Assembly: GCF_004403985.1 (NCBI RefSeq)
Contig: NZ_SOHL01000009.1
Location: 34,580 to 98,579 of the forward strand
Reading direction: 5' to 3'
Source of the DNA: Cryobacterium gelidum
Lineage (GTDB): Bacteria; Actinomycetota; Actinomycetes; Actinomycetales; Microbacteriaceae
DNA: 64,000 nucleotides
Numbering within the stretch: the stretch's first letter is position 1; each line of letters opens with the position of its first letter. This document shows positions 45,490-55,045 of the stretch, one piece after another. Under the pieces are notes generated by a model. It was not told where the DNA came from and did no database searches. It was given only the letters and a program-made list of their open reading frames with translations. The translations under genes were made by a program, and so were the position numbers.

Positions 45490-46094
45490 TGCAGCCGTTC
45501 TCGCTCTCCTCACCGCTGGTACTGCTGGACGAGCTAGCGGCCAGCGACACCGACCGCGTCTTCGACTACTGCCAGGACACGATCTTCGAACGCTATTTGA
45601 CCGTTCCGTGGCCCTACGAACGTGCACACGCCGAGGGATTCATCCTCGAGTATGTTCCCGACGGTTGGCTGTCGGATCGGGAATACACCTGGGCGCTGCG
45701 GGACCCTGCCGGGCCAGGACTTCTGGGCGTGATTGGGCTACGCCTGACAGGCGAATCCGTCGCGGCGGACGCATCCGTTCACCGGGTGGGGTCAATCGGA
45801 TTCTGGCTGGGTGCCCCGCACCGTGGCCGCGGGCTCATTCCCGAAGCGCAACGGCTCGTCGCCGATTGGGCATTCGCACAGGCGATTATCGATGATCTGC
45901 ACTGGGAGTGCCTGCTCGGAAACGTCGCGTCAGCCCGAGCTGCGTGGAAGTCGGGGTTTCGATATACCGGCGTCGCGCCGTCCGTCGCCGCCTACCGCGA
46001 CAAAAGCTACCCCGACTCGTGGCACGGCCACCTCGCAGCCGGCGATGACCGCAGCCCGCAGCCCGGCTGGCCCGCCGCGGCCCTCGCCCGATGA
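45489..46094 (+). CDS. GNAT family N-acetyltransferase (RimJ/RimL-like)
   Basis: A 201-residue acetyltransferase. The GNAT core includes SIGFWLGAPHRGRGLIPEAQRLVADWAF, which is the acetyl-CoA pyrophosphate loop of RimJ/RimL-type proteins, then WECLLGNVASARAAWKSGFRYTG. The substrate could be a ribosomal protein N-terminus or a small molecule. It overlaps trpS by 1 nt and the following HAD gene by 4 nt (ATGA), so it is co-translated in a trpS-GNAT-HAD string. Confidence 0.88.
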   Translation: MQPFSLSSPLVLLDELAASDTDRVFDYCQDTIFERYLTVPWPYERAHAEGFILEYVPDGWLSDREYTWALRDPAGPGLLGVIGLRLTGESVAADASVHRVGSIGFWLGAPHRGRGLIPEAQRLVADWAFAQAIIDDLHWECLLGNVASARAAWKSGFRYTGVAPSVAAYRDKSYPDSWHGHLAAGDDRSPQPGWPAAALAR

Positions 46095-46840
46095 CCGTGC
46101 CGCGGGTTGTGCTGTTTGACCTCGACGACACCCTGTTCGCGCACCGGGACGCGGTCGCTGTGGGCATTCTGCTGCACCTCGACCGGGTCGGCGGCGCCTT
46201 TGCGTCCGGCGACCGAACGGCGGCGACCGTGCTGTGGAACGCGCTCGAGGAGGAGCATTATCACTCCTACCTCGCCGGCGATTTGGACTTTGCCGGTCAG
46301 CGCCGCGCCCGGGCCCAGGATTTCGCGGCGTCATTCCGCATCGCACTGACCGACACCGAGGCGGATCTGTGGTTTGACGAGTATTTCGAGAGCTACCGGT
46401 CCAGTTGGCGGCTGCACGACGACGCGCTCCCCTGCATCGATAAGCTGGCCGAGATGATTCCCGGGGTGCGTTTTGGCCTCATCACGAACGGCGACCCGGT
46501 TTTTCAGGGCGAGAAGATTCGTCGCGTCGGCCTGGCCGACCGGTTCGAGCATGTCGTCACCTCGGGTGCGCTCGGTTTTGCCAAGCCCGACGCACGCATC
46601 TTTGAGCACGCCTGCGCGCTGTTCGACGTGCCCGTGGAGTCGGCGGTCTACGTCGGGGATCGATTACGCACGGATGCGCTGGGCGCGGCCGCTGCGGGGC
46701 TGACCGGTGTCTGGCTCGACCGAGCCGGCGCATCCGCTATGGGCCCTGCCGACACAGATGATGCCGCACGCCTCGGAGTTCTCCGCATCGACACTCTCAC
46801 CCGCCTGCCAGGCCTGTTTGCCGCCCTCCATGGGGCATAA
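46091..46840 (+). CDS. HAD family hydrolase
   Basis: A 249-residue haloacid-dehalogenase-type phosphatase. Motif I is VLFDLDDTLFAHRDAV with both catalytic Asp residues, motif II LITNGDPVF, motif III Lys in FAKPDARIFEHA, and motif IV VYVGDRLRTDALGAAAAGL. A helical cap lies between motifs I and II. The substrate is unknown. Its TAA stop codon (46838-46840) is the first three bases of repeat element E1, so the last base of the gene is set by the element. Confidence 0.9.
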   Translation: MTVPRVVLFDLDDTLFAHRDAVAVGILLHLDRVGGAFASGDRTAATVLWNALEEEHYHSYLAGDLDFAGQRRARAQDFAASFRIALTDTEADLWFDEYFESYRSSWRLHDDALPCIDKLAEMIPGVRFGLITNGDPVFQGEKIRRVGLADRFEHVVTSGALGFAKPDARIFEHACALFDVPVESAVYVGDRLRTDALGAAAAGLTGVWLDRAGASAMGPADTDDAARLGVLRIDTLTRLPGLFAALHGA

Positions 46841-46922
46841 CTCCTGCAAATTGCCACCTTCGCTCGGTGAGGCCTCGCATTGCGGGCTTCTCTTCCGGCT
46901 TATGCAAAATCTGCAGGAGTTA
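46838..46922. repeat. Repeat element E1 (85 bp, inverted termini TAACTCCTGCA)
   Basis: It starts TAACTCCTGCAAATTG and ends with the inverted terminus, read on the minus strand as TAACTCCTGCAGATTTTG. The termini can pair over 11 bp or more, while the interior is not obviously shared with E2 or E3. It lies exactly between two converging genes: its left TAA is the stop of the HAD gene and its right TAA (46920-46922, minus strand) the stop of the DUF559 gene. Confidence 0.85.
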
Positions 46923-47861
46923 CGCGCCACGGATGCCCGTTGTCTGGGCGGCAGTGAAAACTCGGGGACTCCCATACCGGCAAATGTCGACGAGCTTCTG
47001 AATTGCCCGAAGCACGCCCTCCGGATCGAACATGATGTCTTGATAGAGCACGCGGAGTGTGACATAGCCGAGGGCTGCCAGCAAACGGTCTCGGGTGCGG
47101 TCGCGAATGTGCTCCTCCCAGGCTTTGTGGTGACTCTGGCTGTCCGCCTCAACGACCACACAGCCCTCGACCAGTAGATCGACCCGGCCGACCCGGTCGA
47201 TGTGCACCTGGATGTCGCAGCGGTACCCGGCGGAACGAAACAGGTCGCGCACGATGGACTCCTGGCCGGCATCCACTCGCGCATCGATGCGGGACCGCAG
47301 CCCACCATGCTTCTCGGGGACATGGGCGAAGATGTCATCGAGGTCGGTTGCCCGAATCTTGTGCTCGTGTAGGGCGGTGTCGAGCGCCGCGAGAGCAAAG
47401 CGAGGTTCCTGACACTGGATAATCTGGGCGAGGGCGTCGCGGGGCCCGACGCAGTACTCGGTGCCATCAGTTCTGTCGATGAGCGGCCACCAGTGCAGCT
47501 CGACGCCGTCCCGCGGAGCGGCCGCCAGCGGAACGTGACGATTTTGGGGACTGCGCAGACGAGAGCCCTCGCGCGGGATATGCACGTGGGTGAATTGCGA
47601 ATCGAAGGCAAAGAAGCCGATCTCCCGGGCCGCCGAAACGCAGGCTTCGCGCCCGCCGACGCGAACCGCCTCGAGGGTGTGGCGATCGGTTCCCGGCAGA
47701 GCGTAGTGATCGCGGCGGACTCGGATGAGCGTATTGCTCCGCACTGCAGCCGTGATGTGTTTGGCTCGCATGCCGCTGTTCAATAGATCTTGTCGGCTGA
47801 CGATGCGGCACTGGCCAGCGAGGGAGGTCAGGAATGGGTTCATGCAGACGATCGTCGTCAT
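46920..47861 (-). CDS. DUF559 domain protein (Vsr/PD-(D/E)XK nuclease-like) with N-terminal winged-helix region
   Basis: A 313-residue protein if started at ATG 47861 (an ATG at 47843 and one at 47924 are alternatives; none has a well-spaced Shine-Dalgarno). The N-terminal part (QCRIVSRQDLLNSGMRAKHITAAV, then RVRRDHYALPG) resembles the winged-helix region of AbiEi-type and DUF559 proteins. The C-terminal domain carries a nuclease-like core: E201 (QESIVRDLF), D228 (RVGRVDLLVEG), E238-A-D240 (VVVEADSQSHH) and RDRTRDRLLAALGYVTLRVLYQD. DUF559 proteins are related to very-short-patch endonucleases, but their role is unknown. Its stop codon comes from element E1, and E2 and E3 lie upstream of its start. 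Confidence 0.8.
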   Translation of the reverse strand: MTTIVCMNPFLTSLAGQCRIVSRQDLLNSGMRAKHITAAVRSNTLIRVRRDHYALPGTDRHTLEAVRVGGREACVSAAREIGFFAFDSQFTHVHIPREGSRLRSPQNRHVPLAAAPRDGVELHWWPLIDRTDGTEYCVGPRDALAQIIQCQEPRFALAALDTALHEHKIRATDLDDIFAHVPEKHGGLRSRIDARVDAGQESIVRDLFRSAGYRCDIQVHIDRVGRVDLLVEGCVVVEADSQSHHKAWEEHIRDRTRDRLLAALGYVTLRVLYQDIMFDPEGVLRAIQKLVDICRYGSPRVFTAAQTTGIRGA

Positions 47862-47986
47862 TTTCCAGTGGCTGTGACCTCCCCGCAACCAATCTGGGAA
47901 CAGCACTTCCAGCCGCCTGTGCATAACTCTTCCGTGCTTACTCTTTCGAGTTTATTCTTCCGTGTCACACCACTCGCGAGAGCGCC

Positions 47987-48072
47987 TAACTCCTGCAATC
48001 TCCCCACAAGTCCGCAATCTGACCCGGAAGCACTCGGGTCGGCCGGACCGAGATATCAAATTGCAGGAGTTA
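47987..48072. repeat. Repeat element E2 (86 bp, inverted termini TAACTCCTGCA)
   Basis: It starts TAACTCCTGCAATC and ends CAAATTGCAGGAGTTA, the inverted copy of the terminus. It lies upstream of the DUF559 gene in non-coding DNA. The interior differs from E1 and E3 except for a vaguely shared CCGGAA-type word. Confidence 0.85.
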
Positions 48073-48158
48073 CGCGATTGGGCCATCCCGGAGTGAAAAC
48101 GGTCACCCAGAAGGGCGGTCGAGCCGAATTGATGGATCACCGGGCAGTCACCAAGGCA
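48073..48158. other. 86-bp spacer between repeat elements E2 and E3
   Basis: Exactly 86 bp separate E2 and E3, equal to the length of each element, so corresponding termini of E2 and E3 are offset by 172 bp. No gene or TAACTCCTGCA motif is inside. Confidence 0.6.
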
Positions 48159-48244
48159 TAACTCCTGCAGATTGCACGCGCTGTGTCTACGGACCGCGAA
48201 AACACGGACCTCCGGAAAGTTGACACGGCAATTTGCAGGAGTTA
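48159..48244. repeat. Repeat element E3 (86 bp, inverted termini TAACTCCTGCA)
   Basis: It starts TAACTCCTGCAGATTG and ends CAATTTGCAGGAGTTA, flanked by GCA on the left and TGC on the right. It lies 47 bp beyond the 3' end of glpK, whose gene converges towards it. No coding sequence is visible between 47862 and 48291 apart from the elements. Confidence 0.85.
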
Positions 48245-48291: not shown

Positions 48292-49806
48292 CTAACGCAC
48301 GTCTTCGTCTACCCAGTCCAGGGTTTTCGTGACTGCTTTTTTCCAGTTGCGCAGCAGGCGGGCTGCTTCCTCCGGCTCCATCGAGGGCTCCCAGCGGGCG
48401 TCTTCCTGCCAGTTGGAGCGCAGGTCATCAAGGCCGCTCCAGAAGCCCACGGCGAGGCCGGCCGCGTAGGCGGCGCCGAGCGCGGTGGTCTCGGCGACGA
48501 CCGGGCGCACGACGGGCACGCCGATGATGTCGGCCTGGAACTGCATGAGCAGGTCGTTCACCGTGGCACCGCCGTCGACCTTGAGCTCGGTCAGCGGCAC
48601 CCCGGAGTCCGCGTTGACCGCGTCGAGCACCTCCCGGGTCTGATAGGCGATGGCCTCGAGTGCTGCACGGGCGATGTGACCCTTGTTCACGTAGCGGGTG
48701 AGGCCGACCAGGGCGCCGCGGGCGTCCGACCGCCAGTACGGCGCGAACAGGCCGGAGAAAGCCGGCACGAAGTACGCCCCGCCGTTGTCCGTGACCGTCT
48801 TGGCCAGGTCTTCGATCTCGTTGGCGTTCTTGATGATGCCGATCTGGTCGCGCATCCACTGCACGAGCGAGCCGGTGACAGCGATCGACCCCTCCAGGGC
48901 ATAGTGCACCGGGGCGTCGCCGAGCTTGTACCCCACGGTGGTGAGCAAGCCGTTCTTCGAGTGGATGATCTCGGTACCGGTGTTGAAGATCAGAAAGTTT
49001 CCGGTGCCGTAGGTGTTCTTCGCCTCGCCCTGGTCGAAGGCGGCCTGGCCAAAAGTCGCCGCCTGCTGGTCGCCGAGGATTCCGGATATCGGCACCTCGC
49101 GCAGCAGGCTGTGCCCGCTTGCAGTGCCGTACACCTCGGAGGACGACTTGATCTCGGGCAGCATCGACTTCGGCACGTCGAAGATGCTGAGAATCTCGTC
49201 GTCCCACTGCAGGGTTTCGAGGTCCATGAACATGGTGCGGCTGGCGTTGGTGACGTCGGTCGCGTGGACGCCGCCCTCGATGCCGCCGGTCAGGTTCCAG
49301 AGAACCCAGGAATCCGTGGTGCCGAACAGGAGGTCGCCGGCATCCGCTCTCGCGCGTGCTCCCTCAACGTTTTCCAGGATCCAGACGATCTTGGTTCCGG
49401 AGAAGTAGGTGGCCAGTGGTAGACCGACCTTCGCTTTGAACCGGTCGACGCCACCATCCGCTGCCAACCGGTCGACGATGGGCTGGGTCCGGGTATCCTG
49501 CCAGACGATGGCGTTGTAGACGGGCACGCCGGTGTTTTTGTCCCAGACGACAGCGGTTTCGCGCTGGTTGGTGATGCCGACGGCTTCGATGTCGTGGCGG
49601 GTGATGTTCGCCTTCGATAGCGCCTGGCCGATGGCCTCACGGGTGTTGTCCCAGATTTCCTTCGGGTCATGCTCGACCCAGCCGGCCTGCGGCAGAATCT
49701 GTTTGTGCTCGAGCTGGCCGGTCGAAATGATCGAGCCAGCCTTGTCGAAGACGATCGCGCGGGAGCTGGTGGTTCCCTGGTCGATGGCGAGAATGTATTT
49801 GGCCAT
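48292..49806 (-). CDS. glpK: Glycerol kinase
   Basis: A 504-residue FGGY-family kinase phosphorylating glycerol to sn-glycerol 3-phosphate. The N-terminus [21 protein letters not shown] and the blocks [35 protein letters not shown] and [18 protein letters not shown] are diagnostic. AAGGAG lies 6 nt before the ATG. It is the last gene of the glpD-glpF-glpK series, 77 bp after glpF. Confidence 0.97.
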
Positions 49807-53726: not shown

Positions 53727-53748
53727 TAGAAGTAGTACTTGCAGTACA

Positions 53749-53888
53749 CGTGCTCCGGGGTCGGTGTAATTCCGAACCGGCGGTTAAAGTCCGCGACCCG
53801 TTAGTCCCTCGAGAACGTTTGGGGGACGAAGCGGTTGAGCTGGTGAAACTCCAGCACCGACGGTCACAGTCCGGACGGGAGGCGCACG
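53749..53888 (+). ncRNA. FMN riboswitch (RFN element)
   Basis: The conserved RFN core is easy to read: GTGCTCCGGGGTCGG near the 5' end, AATTCCGAACCGGCGG, AGTCCGCGACCCG, then CTGGTGAAACTCCAGCACC and GACGGTCACAGTCCGGA near the 3' end. P1 closes between CGTGC (53749-53753) and GCACG (53884-53888). It lies in the leader of ribD and, when FMN binds, should lower expression of the rib operon. Confidence 0.95.
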
Positions 53889-53892
53889 AGTT

Positions 53893-53913
53893 GGTTGGCT
53901 GCTACAGCCGACC
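53893..53913 (+). terminator. Hairpin after the FMN riboswitch (expression platform candidate)
   Basis: GGTTGGCTG (53893-53901) pairs with CAGCCGACC (53905-53913) through a 3-nt loop, with one G-T wobble, and TTTT follows 8 nt later. It could be a terminator arm of the riboswitch. About 75 nt remain before ribD with nothing else recognised. Confidence 0.5.
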
Positions 53914-53989
53914 AGCGGAATTTTGCGTGCGGTATTTTCCGTGCGCAGATCCACACCCCCGGAGCTCGTCCGATACGGATGAGGGCGGG

Positions 53990-55045
53990 ATGATCGAGAA
54001 CGCGGCAGTCGGCACGGGCCTGACCGGTCTAGCTGTCGAGGGTGCCATGCGCCGCGCATTCGAACTCGCCGCCCACGGCCCGGCCACCGGCGTGAACCCG
54101 CGGGTCGGCTGCCTCATCCTGAACGGGCACGGCGAGACCCTCGCCGAAGGCTGGCACCGCGGTGCCGGAAGCCGGCACGCCGAGGTCGACGCCCTTGCGA
54201 AGCTCGCCCCCGGCGCGGCTAGCGGCAGTACCGCCGTCGTCACCCTCGAACCATGCAACCATGTCGGCCGTACCGGTCCGTGCGCGCTGGCCCTGATCGA
54301 CGCTGGCGTCGCCCGCGTCATCTACTCCGTGAGCGACCCCGGCAAGCACTCCTGCGGCGGGGCTGCCCGGCTACGCGCCGCCGGTATCGAGGTGCAGGGC
54401 GGCGTGATCGTCGAGCAAGGCGAAGCATTTCTCGGTGACTGGCTCGTTGCCGCCCGCCTCGGCCGCCCCTTCGTCACGCTCAAATGGGCCTCGAGTCTCG
54501 ACGGTCGCGCGGCCGCGACCGACGGCTCCAGCCGGTGGATCACCGGCGCAGCGGCCCGCCTCGACGTGCACCGACGCCGCGCGGCCCGCGACACGATTCT
54601 GGTCGGTACCGGCACCGTGCTCGCCGACGACCCGGCGCTGACCGCACGGGGCGAAGACGGCGGGCTGCTCGCCCAGCAGCCCGTGCCCGTGATCGTCGGC
54701 CGTCGTGCGCTGCCGAGATCCGCTGCCCTGTTCGCGCACCCGAAGCAACCGTTGTTCTTCGACGGCCTCGATCTGCCAGGCCTGCTGGCCGATCTGCACA
54801 GCCGGGGCCTGCGCAGCGTGTTCATCGAGGGCGGACCGACCCTGGCGAGCGCCTTCGTCGCCGCGTCGCTGGTCGACGAATACCTCATCTACCTCGCGCC
54901 CACACTGATCGGCGGGCCCCGACTGGTGCTCGGCGACATCGGCGTGAGCGTCATCGGCGAGCAACGCCGCCTCTCTATTCAGTCTCTCGACCGGCTCGGC
55001 GACGACGTTCTCATCGTGGCCCGGTCCCAACCCGCTTCGATCTAA
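53990..55045 (+). CDS. ribD: Bifunctional pyrimidine deaminase/reductase RibD
   Basis: A 351-residue enzyme for two successive steps of riboflavin synthesis. The N-terminal deaminase has zinc-site residues H63-A-E65 (SRHAEVDALAKL) and C89/C98 (EPCNHVGRTGPC). The C-terminal reductase begins PFVTLKWASSLDGRAAATDGSSRWITG. The start is ATG 53990 (MIENAAVGTG) with GAGGGCGGG upstream; the open frame runs back through the riboswitch, which is not coding. It is the first gene of ribD-ribE-ribBA-ribH. Confidence 0.95.
   Translation: MIENAAVGTGLTGLAVEGAMRRAFELAAHGPATGVNPRVGCLILNGHGETLAEGWHRGAGSRHAEVDALAKLAPGAASGSTAVVTLEPCNHVGRTGPCALALIDAGVARVIYSVSDPGKHSCGGAARLRAAGIEVQGGVIVEQGEAFLGDWLVAARLGRPFVTLKWASSLDGRAAATDGSSRWITGAAARLDVHRRRAARDTILVGTGTVLADDPALTARGEDGGLLAQQPVPVIVGRRALPRSAALFAHPKQPLFFDGLDLPGLLADLHSRGLRSVFIEGGPTLASAFVAASLVDEYLIYLAPTLIGGPRLVLGDIGVSVIGEQRRLSIQSLDRLGDDVLIVARSQPASI

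Follow-up and report, generated by a model that had tools for sequence, protein, structure and literature searches.

Versions of a Cryobacterium DUF559 gene seem to be tied to the spread of their own short symmetric elements

A gene of the DUF559 family in Cryobacterium gelidum lies among three short DNA elements with inverted ends, and this locus raises the question of whether the gene and the elements belong together. The locus is part of a 64,000-nucleotide stretch of contig NZ_SOHL01000009.1 (positions 34,580 to 98,579, forward strand), which is referred to here as the window and to which the coordinates below refer. A first-pass annotation had linked the gene to the elements by proximity and had proposed either a small mobile or target-site system or a family of structured regulatory elements. 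Comparison of genomes indicated that versions of the gene seem to be flanked on both sides by a short, symmetric and dispersed element of fixed length that is particular to them, and to be linked with its spread. Fixed-length dyads surround the gene, the same dyads are dispersed in intergenic DNA, and their motifs are specific to the gene subtype. The features of the locus are as follows.

46838..46922, 85 bp: element 1, a type-A dyad between the convergent HAD-hydrolase and DUF559 genes.
47987..48072, 86 bp: element 2, a type-A dyad upstream of the DUF559 gene, with orthologues in 4 relatives.
48159..48244, 86 bp: element 3, a type-A dyad that separates the DUF559 gene from the glycerol kinase 3' end, with orthologues in 4 relatives.
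46920..47924, minus strand: DUF559 gene, 334 amino acids, with a putative AbiEi_4-like winged-helix N terminus (match below cut-off) and a Vsr-like nuclease C terminus (DUF559 / REase_MTES_1575); the proposed cognate protein.
46091..46840, plus strand: HAD-family hydrolase gene, the left border of the locus.
48292..49806, minus strand: flanking gene at the right border of the locus, which we take to be a glycerol kinase gene, a name based on its sequence and not on a family search.

The three elements of 85, 86 and 86 bp were found where the first-pass annotation had placed them. Each is an inverted pair of TAACTCCTGCA, and this 11-mer is exact at 6 of 6 ends. The absence of further copies in the 64 kb was borne out for exact copies, these six being the only ones in the window; with up to 2 mismatches there were 15 matches, against a mean of 6.5 in shuffled sequences, and 0 of 100 shuffles reached 15. 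Orthologues of element 1 were found in 4 relatives. Each of its outer TAA triplets ends a gene: that at 46838-46840 is the HAD stop codon, and that at 46920-46922, read on the opposite strand, terminates the DUF559 gene. The source genome (3.47 Mb in 30 contigs) contained 6 exact pairs, against 0 matches to a reversed control pattern, and 3 further pairs with at least one mismatch, giving about nine elements in all.

Gene type and flanking motif were compared at 41 loci, consisting of the interval between the HAD and glpK genes or the DUF559 neighbourhood from 40 genomes and of the window. Genes were typed by identity to the window protein, with 64% or more defining type A and 47 to 55% defining type B; one gene fragment of 63% identity was counted as being without an A gene. 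Recognisable A ends (up to 3 mismatches in 15 bases) flanked the gene on both sides in 20 of 21 type-A loci, in some as a single end only, and the 21st held a gene fragment and one element. No A motif was found beside the gene in 10 of 11 type-B loci, the other having a single weak half, while dyads with ends GGCTAAYTCAGGA or a near variant were present in 11 of 11. Among 60 further DUF559-family loci of the genus, nearly all of them distant paralogues, many had flanking dyads with other ends (for example, CCGAATTCAGGAGT, ACCATTCGACGGAGTT, ATTCGACGGAGATTTTGC, GTCGGAGATTTTCGC and ATGGAGATTCTCGC) and others had none. Two further kinds of locus were observed. At L094, on a contig of a metagenome-assembled genome (MAG), a 75-bp A element (936-1010) lies 40 bases behind a gene that is nearer to type B (50% identity to that of L152) than to the window gene. 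At L144 and L148 (genomes G047 and G011), the HAD-glpK gap has no DUF559 gene and holds a remnant of about 35 bp resembling two fused A ends (TAACTCC on the left, CAAATTGCAGGARTTA on the right), as if the gene had been lost by a join inside the end motifs.

A flank test was then applied, in which inverted pairs of 65 to 112 bp with a common 12-base motif had to be present in both 500-bp flanks. A usable match was present at 91 of the 101 loci considered, and this test and the residue alignment were run on 89; control genes were taken from loci chosen for A elements, minus ten loci of the DUF559 neighbourhood. The pattern was present at 36 of 89 family loci and at 3 of 498 control genes. By group, it was detected at 11 of 12 type-B loci, at 13 of 56 loci with less than 45% identity and at 12 of 21 type-A loci, the test being stricter than the A-motif scan. 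Among the 30 best loci listed from Microbacteriaceae, for which the limits were slightly wider than those of the control, 12 fully shared a motif between the flanks, as did 10 of 27 outside the genus. In both non-Cryobacterium genomes of a Microbacteriaceae sample that had A elements (G132 and G245), a strong relative of the A gene was adjoined by A elements, in G132 on both sides.

Protein identity and motif similarity were correlated across 64 loci (Mantel rho of 0.53, 0 of 2,000 permutations); these loci had all been picked for a flank-shared motif at 11 of 12 bases, the test ignores kinship, and common descent of the linked locus explains part of the correlation. A common motif was found in more than 90% of pairs above 60% protein identity and in 2% of pairs below 40%. 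In the wider phylum, 30 PF18741 loci were listed, 17 of which lay inside long frames and were left out, and none of the 13 testable loci, two of which had very short frames, carried inverted pairs on both sides, so that the pairing of gene and element is claimed for Microbacteriaceae only.

The elements themselves were widely dispersed in the genus. A scan of GTDB genomes detected at least 118 stretches with A pairs, nearly all from Cryobacterium; those from elsewhere among the matches listed were a few from Lacisediminihabitans, Microbacterium, Rhodoglobus and other MAG contigs and one from a Bacteroidetes contig. The last, a single 96-bp pattern match on a Bacteroidetes MAG contig (L117, 7753-7848), is probably due to chance or misbinning. 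The search of the genome and its relatives that the first-pass annotation had suggested found exact A pairs in 44 of 57 genomes of the genus, at 1 to 29 each, and in 8 of 299 genomes and 2 of 85 genera of a Microbacteriaceae sample. B dyads were dispersed as well, being present in 25 of the 57 genomes.

Copy number followed the gene type. The median number of A elements was 13.5 in 22 genomes with an A gene and 2 in 35 without (p = 3e-6), and that of B elements was 8 in 15 genomes with a B gene and 0 in 42 without (p = 5e-6), in tests that ignore phylogeny. An intergenic site unlinked to the gene (element C26:223997 of the source genome) was read in 56 genomes. Of 22 A-labelled genomes, 13 had an A end, 8 had a short gap without any end and 1 (G055) had a variant motif like that beside the second, 52% gene of this genome; among the 13, two had one intact end and one had adjacent A and B dyads. 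The 14 B-only genomes comprised 9 with a B end and 5 without an end, and none had an A end. Genomes holding an end at this site therefore had the matching kind in 13 of 13 cases with an A gene and in 9 of 9 with a B gene. In 20 genomes with neither gene, there were 12 with A ends, 6 without an exact end, 1 with a B end and 1 with both kinds. One end was mutated in five of the 12, and seven kept both ends. Decay of the motif after gene loss was suggestive and was not counted, because the genomes with mutated ends partly share one change, perhaps by descent, and because of the seven with both ends.

The complete genome G025 contained 29 A elements, of which fifteen copies were fully read. Six of these had interiors that were 70 to 87% identical, some in opposite orientation (the maximum of the shuffled null was 0.70), and the likeness of their flanks was about that of the background. 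The elements have spread by copying to new sites. For 5 of 5 copies tested among these six, element-free orthologous intergenic gaps were present in some relatives (seven genomes searched); the comparison for empty sites raised by the first-pass annotation succeeded to this extent, none of the gaps being base-exact. Other relatives held different sequences in these gaps, namely, a B-like relic in G050 and another insert in G032. The locus L371 of G022, orthologous to the type-A site L337 of G025, has another dyad, TAAACTCGGATTTT...AAAATCTCCGAGTTTA. The right flank of L343 in G025 seems, by eye only, to start another nuclease gene of the same family.

The lengths of A elements clustered near 75 and 86 bp. 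The scan pattern for A pairs admitted 67 to 97 bp, and of 132 distinct pairs in 118 loci, among the matches listed, 22 measured 74 to 77 bp and 105 measured 84 to 88 bp; the 5 others were of 81, 90, 90, 96 and 128 bp, the last sharing its right end with an 86-bp pair. The 75 readable B lengths, from a pattern admitting 76 to 106 bp, were 81 to 82 bp (6 copies), 91 to 94 bp (63 copies) and 103 to 104 bp (6 copies). Measured from TAA to TTA these become 75 to 76, 85 to 88 and 97 to 98 bp, so that type B follows the same ladder as type A, its full lengths being 6 bp greater. Five of the six copies in the 97-bp class of type B came from G007 and probably descend from one founder. A ends almost never stood alone: 131 forward ends in the 118 loci were paired and 7 apparently unpaired, and 6 of these 7 had a partner with 1 or 2 mismatches at 75 to 87 bp, leaving 1 without a partner. 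Two adjoining 90-bp A-type elements with similar interiors, off the 75/86/97 ladder, were observed in Microbacterium sp. Marseille-Q6648 (L065, 4974-5063 and 5150-5239).

The interiors, described in the first-pass annotation as largely unrelated, fitted that description in their spacers of about 20 bp, which carry little information, and departed from it at the centre, where the 86-bp class has a weakly conserved palindrome of approximately CCSCGKRATTMCGSGG. Conservation is seen in the centre and in the two inverted ends, set at fixed distances from one another. A hairpin fits this less well than does a complex of protein with duplex DNA; the ends alone may act as hairpins. Constraint was examined by equal-length comparisons of orthologues, those of the three window elements coming from five species and those of one unlinked element from six. 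Differing sites amounted to 28 of 960 in the ends (2.9%), 65 of 479 in the centre (13.6%) and 303 of 1,140 in the spacers (26.6%), and length was constant within one base of 86. The spacers have changed at about the rate of the synonymous sites of the gene, for which the synonymous divergence (dS) was 0.19 to 0.79.

The window protein was examined for the properties expected of an enzyme. It has the marks of a DUF559/Vsr-like nuclease, in that its Pfam score for DUF559 was 30.2 bits (cut-off of 20.6) and that E222, D249, H266 and D275, the putative catalytic residues as judged from the fold, were conserved in all 89 aligned family frames, with Q239 and D261 nearly invariant. The MTES_1575 score of 36.4 bits was just below the cut-off of 38.2; this name comes from a Vsr-REase domain inside a large multidomain protein (PMC3710099, in excerpt). 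The ratio of nonsynonymous to synonymous divergence (dN/dS) was 0.11 to 0.17 in 8 pairs, and this together with the invariant residues makes a catalytic, selected enzyme likely. A structure model had a mean predicted local distance difference test score of 56.7 and was good only in the C-terminal domain; as the N terminus was unusable, how the protein reads the motif was not judged from the model. A Foldseek search with the C-terminal domain gave template modelling scores on the target of 0.76 for the Neisseria endonuclease-like protein 3hrl, 0.71 for I-Bth0305I and 0.44 for Vsr, a likeness that is suggestive only because E values were 0.025 to 0.2 and none reached 0.001. No relative at an E value of 0.1 was detected in a PDB sequence search and no match in an NCBIfam search, and PADLOC gave only a weak match. 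Relatives of the gene were found in 130 of 199 genomes and 61 of 85 genera in a sample of Microbacteriaceae.

The arrangement resembles that of REPtrons, in which a stable gene for a TnpA-REP protein (also RAYT) lies beside, and has co-evolved with, dispersed short symmetric elements, its cognate repetitive extragenic palindromes (PMC8266576, in excerpt). As here, the REPtron gene is mostly single copy and adjoins its own repeats, copies of these repeats are scattered between genes, the abundance of the repeats is correlated with the gene, and gene groups have co-evolved with repeats (PMC8266576, same excerpt). The enzymes differ, a Vsr-fold nuclease with a probable winged helix here and an HUH tyrosine transposase in REPtrons, and so do the elements, which are paired dyads of 75, 86 or 97 bp with variable spacers here and palindromes of 20 to 50 nucleotides with a GTAG foot there (PMC8266576, same excerpt). 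Thus, Pfam gave only MTES_1575, DUF559 and AbiEi_4 for the window protein and no HUH/Y1 tyrosine transposase, and GTAG/CGTC-tagged folded palindromes of 20 to 50 nucleotides were not seen in elements that have ends TAACTCCTGCA or GGCTAAYTCAGGA, lengths of 75 to 97 bp and no excess of spacer pairing. The gene adjoins cognate repeats that are also dispersed, which is REPtron logic; because enzyme and element are of other kinds, the unit is not a member of the REPtrons.

Other known systems shared parts of this organisation. AbiEi and Rv2827c, type IV antitoxins, have an N-terminal winged helix of the AbiEi_4 kind, to which the match here is weak, and 23-bp half-sites in inverted orientation, with a gap that is 10 bp longer in one of the two studied systems than in the other (PMC7319586, in part). 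Unlike AbiEi, the protein here has a nuclease C terminus and its sites are dispersed genome-wide. An AbiEii/DUF1814 toxin gene was not adjacent in the window, where the neighbours are the HAD hydrolase gene and, presumably, the glycerol kinase gene. Vsr/DUF559 nucleases, such as Escherichia coli Vsr, Caulobacter VsrA (PMC12907096, in part) and the homing endonuclease I-Bth0305I, appear to share the catalytic domain fold. The window protein differs from them in having about 200 extra N-terminal residues and in a gene bracketed by cognate dyads, and no mismatch-repair or intron context was seen in the window. Miniature inverted-repeat transposable elements (MITEs) are short and non-coding, with inverted ends, dispersed copies and element-free sites in relatives. 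Terminal inverted repeats and dispersed copies are shared with MITEs. The elements here differ in that no target-site duplication of 5 bp or more was detected, that spacers differ between most copies at a fixed length and that no parent element with the same ends was seen in the 118 loci, whole genomes not having been searched for longer elements. Searches of open-licence articles found no paper on these elements and no role for the winged-helix form of this gene family.

Taken together, these results make it probable that gene and elements form a REPtron-like two-part unit, in which a solitary winged-helix/Vsr-fold nuclease recognises the paired ends of its own dyad and promotes its copying. 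Recognition of the ends by the protein is strongly implied, and we infer that the nuclease mobilises the elements. AbiEi proteins, which have a winged helix, bind as monomers to inverted repeats of 23 bp (PMC7319586, in part). In the proposed mechanism, the winged-helix part would bind the end motif of about 20 bp, and two proteins on the two inverted ends would lie on the same face of the helix, which would explain why lengths of about 75, 86 and 97 bp differ by one turn; together with the central palindrome, they would hold the element in a looped complex. Cleavage by the nuclease domain in or close to an end might follow, the dyad then being copied to a new place by repair or strand transfer, while the gene would be kept as a stable chromosomal locus, as is tnpA-REP in REPtrons. 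There is about an even chance that this represents a new class of mobile element, in which a stand-alone winged-helix/Vsr-fold nuclease recognises paired inverted ends whose spacing goes by single helical turns (75/86/97 bp) and moves double-stranded DNA dyads of fixed length, and in which many distinct pairs of gene and element have radiated across Microbacteriaceae.

Several observations weigh against this explanation. A elements were present in 24 of 35 genomes without an A gene, the copy-number tests take no account of phylogeny, and at the unlinked site A ends persisted in 12 of the 20 genomes with neither gene, a further genome having both kinds. At L094, the gene next to an A element is only 46% identical to that of the window. 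The gene of G025, the genome with the clearest burst, has two internal stops, indicating that copies can outlast the gene. The AbiEi_4 match of the window protein, at 20.2 bits, was below the 25-bit Pfam cut-off, and high conservation of the ends with low conservation of the spacers fits selection on sites. Direct repeats of at least 5 bp were not clearly in excess in 128 A copies, 15 A copies of the burst genome and 21 B copies. An excess of 4-base repeats was present in 21 of 128 A copies (16% against 8.5% expected); 20 of these 21 were TGCA, which is palindromic, may equally belong to the inverted ends and is therefore ambiguous as a target-site duplication. A duplication in old copies could have been lost since. 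Likewise, there was no base-exact empty site among the orthologous gaps compared, where insertion points are uncertain by tens of bases because the flanks align at only about 73 to 94% identity.

The main rival explanation is that the elements are operator sites, through which the protein, by its winged helix, represses a small regulon and the gene that encodes it; the nuclease domain would serve another purpose, and the elements would have spread passively or by recombination and been kept by selection where they are useful. AbiEi antitoxins autoregulate through 23-bp inverted repeats (PMC7319586, in part), and this explanation would account for ends that are far more conserved than spacers at orthologous loci and for an unlinked site at which species carry the kind of element matching their own gene. 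We regard it as unlikely, given that elements also lie downstream of the gene, that the number of exact pairs varies from 0 to 29 among species with copies having spread in one genome, and that the nuclease residues are invariant in 89 frames. Elements were also relatively common between convergent genes: by our own gene calls, 119 classified A copies comprised 39 in convergent, 59 in tandem and 21 in divergent gaps, against 74, 211 and 113, respectively, of 398 background gaps of at least 90 bp (element-bearing gaps included).

That the elements are ordinary MITE-like copies of some other transposase, with the DUF559 gene as a frequent landing place or a passenger, appears improbable. In its favour, the short dyads resemble MITEs in their conserved inverted ends, their dispersal and the element-free sites of relatives, and A elements persist in many genomes that lack an A gene. 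Against it, different gene subtypes are flanked on each side by different motifs, as far down as about 25% protein identity and also outside the genus, and in the 118 loci the ends are nearly always fixed-distance pairs, with no target-site duplication of 5 bp or more detected. Of the gene clusters near A elements, the DUF559 gene was found most often (at 9 of 119 loci, most of them a single orthologous locus), other clusters being found at no more than 7 loci each and resembling orthologous neighbourhoods; these clusters are unannotated, so a transposase may be among them. Bidirectional terminators or structured RNAs that have spread and been retained because they form 3' ends are a highly improbable explanation. 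Pairing of the inverted ends is possible, 56 of 137 3' ends of neighbouring genes sit 20 to 59 bp from an element, 22 of 262 element ends supply the stop codon of the upstream frame, and interiors fold slightly better than shuffles (mean z of -0.8 to -1.2). Neither length steps of about 11 bp nor gene-specific motifs are expected of terminators, however, and 21 copies lie between divergent genes. Cross-dyad pairing of spacer positions 17 to 35 in the 86-bp class was 0.299, against 0.296 between different elements (n = 64), and the values were 0.386 against 0.369 in the 75-bp class (n = 18) and 0.282 against 0.298 in the 87-bp class (n = 37). With pairing near expectation in all three classes and no gathering-level Rfam match at the window elements, the RNA hairpin or terminator reading was rejected.

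The interpretation offered in the first-pass annotation was therefore supported in one half. A small mobile or target-site system tied to the gene agrees with the excess in the flank test, the dependence on gene subtype, the recurrence in other genera, the copying and the element-free sites; structured regulatory elements acting as RNA do not agree with the pairing data, and regulation through protein-bound sites stays as a rival. The association with DUF559 genes was present, element positions differed among relatives and the paired spacing was found elsewhere, the opposite of what that annotation had named as refuting its proposal. Elsewhere in the window, an ordinary flavin mononucleotide (FMN) riboswitch (RF00050, 94.6 bits) was found at 53747-53890 on the plus strand, just 5' of a long frame at 53750-55045.

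Relatives of this gene are widespread in Microbacteriaceae, and having a cognate DNA partner provides many of them with a substrate that can be tested. The many distinct pairs of gene and element would form a natural set for reading the co-evolution of a protein and its DNA site, and, because lengths step by one turn, the geometry of the complex can be tested directly. Should the nuclease indeed move the dyads, dispersal of the REP kind has arisen again with an unrelated enzyme, seemingly on double-stranded DNA.

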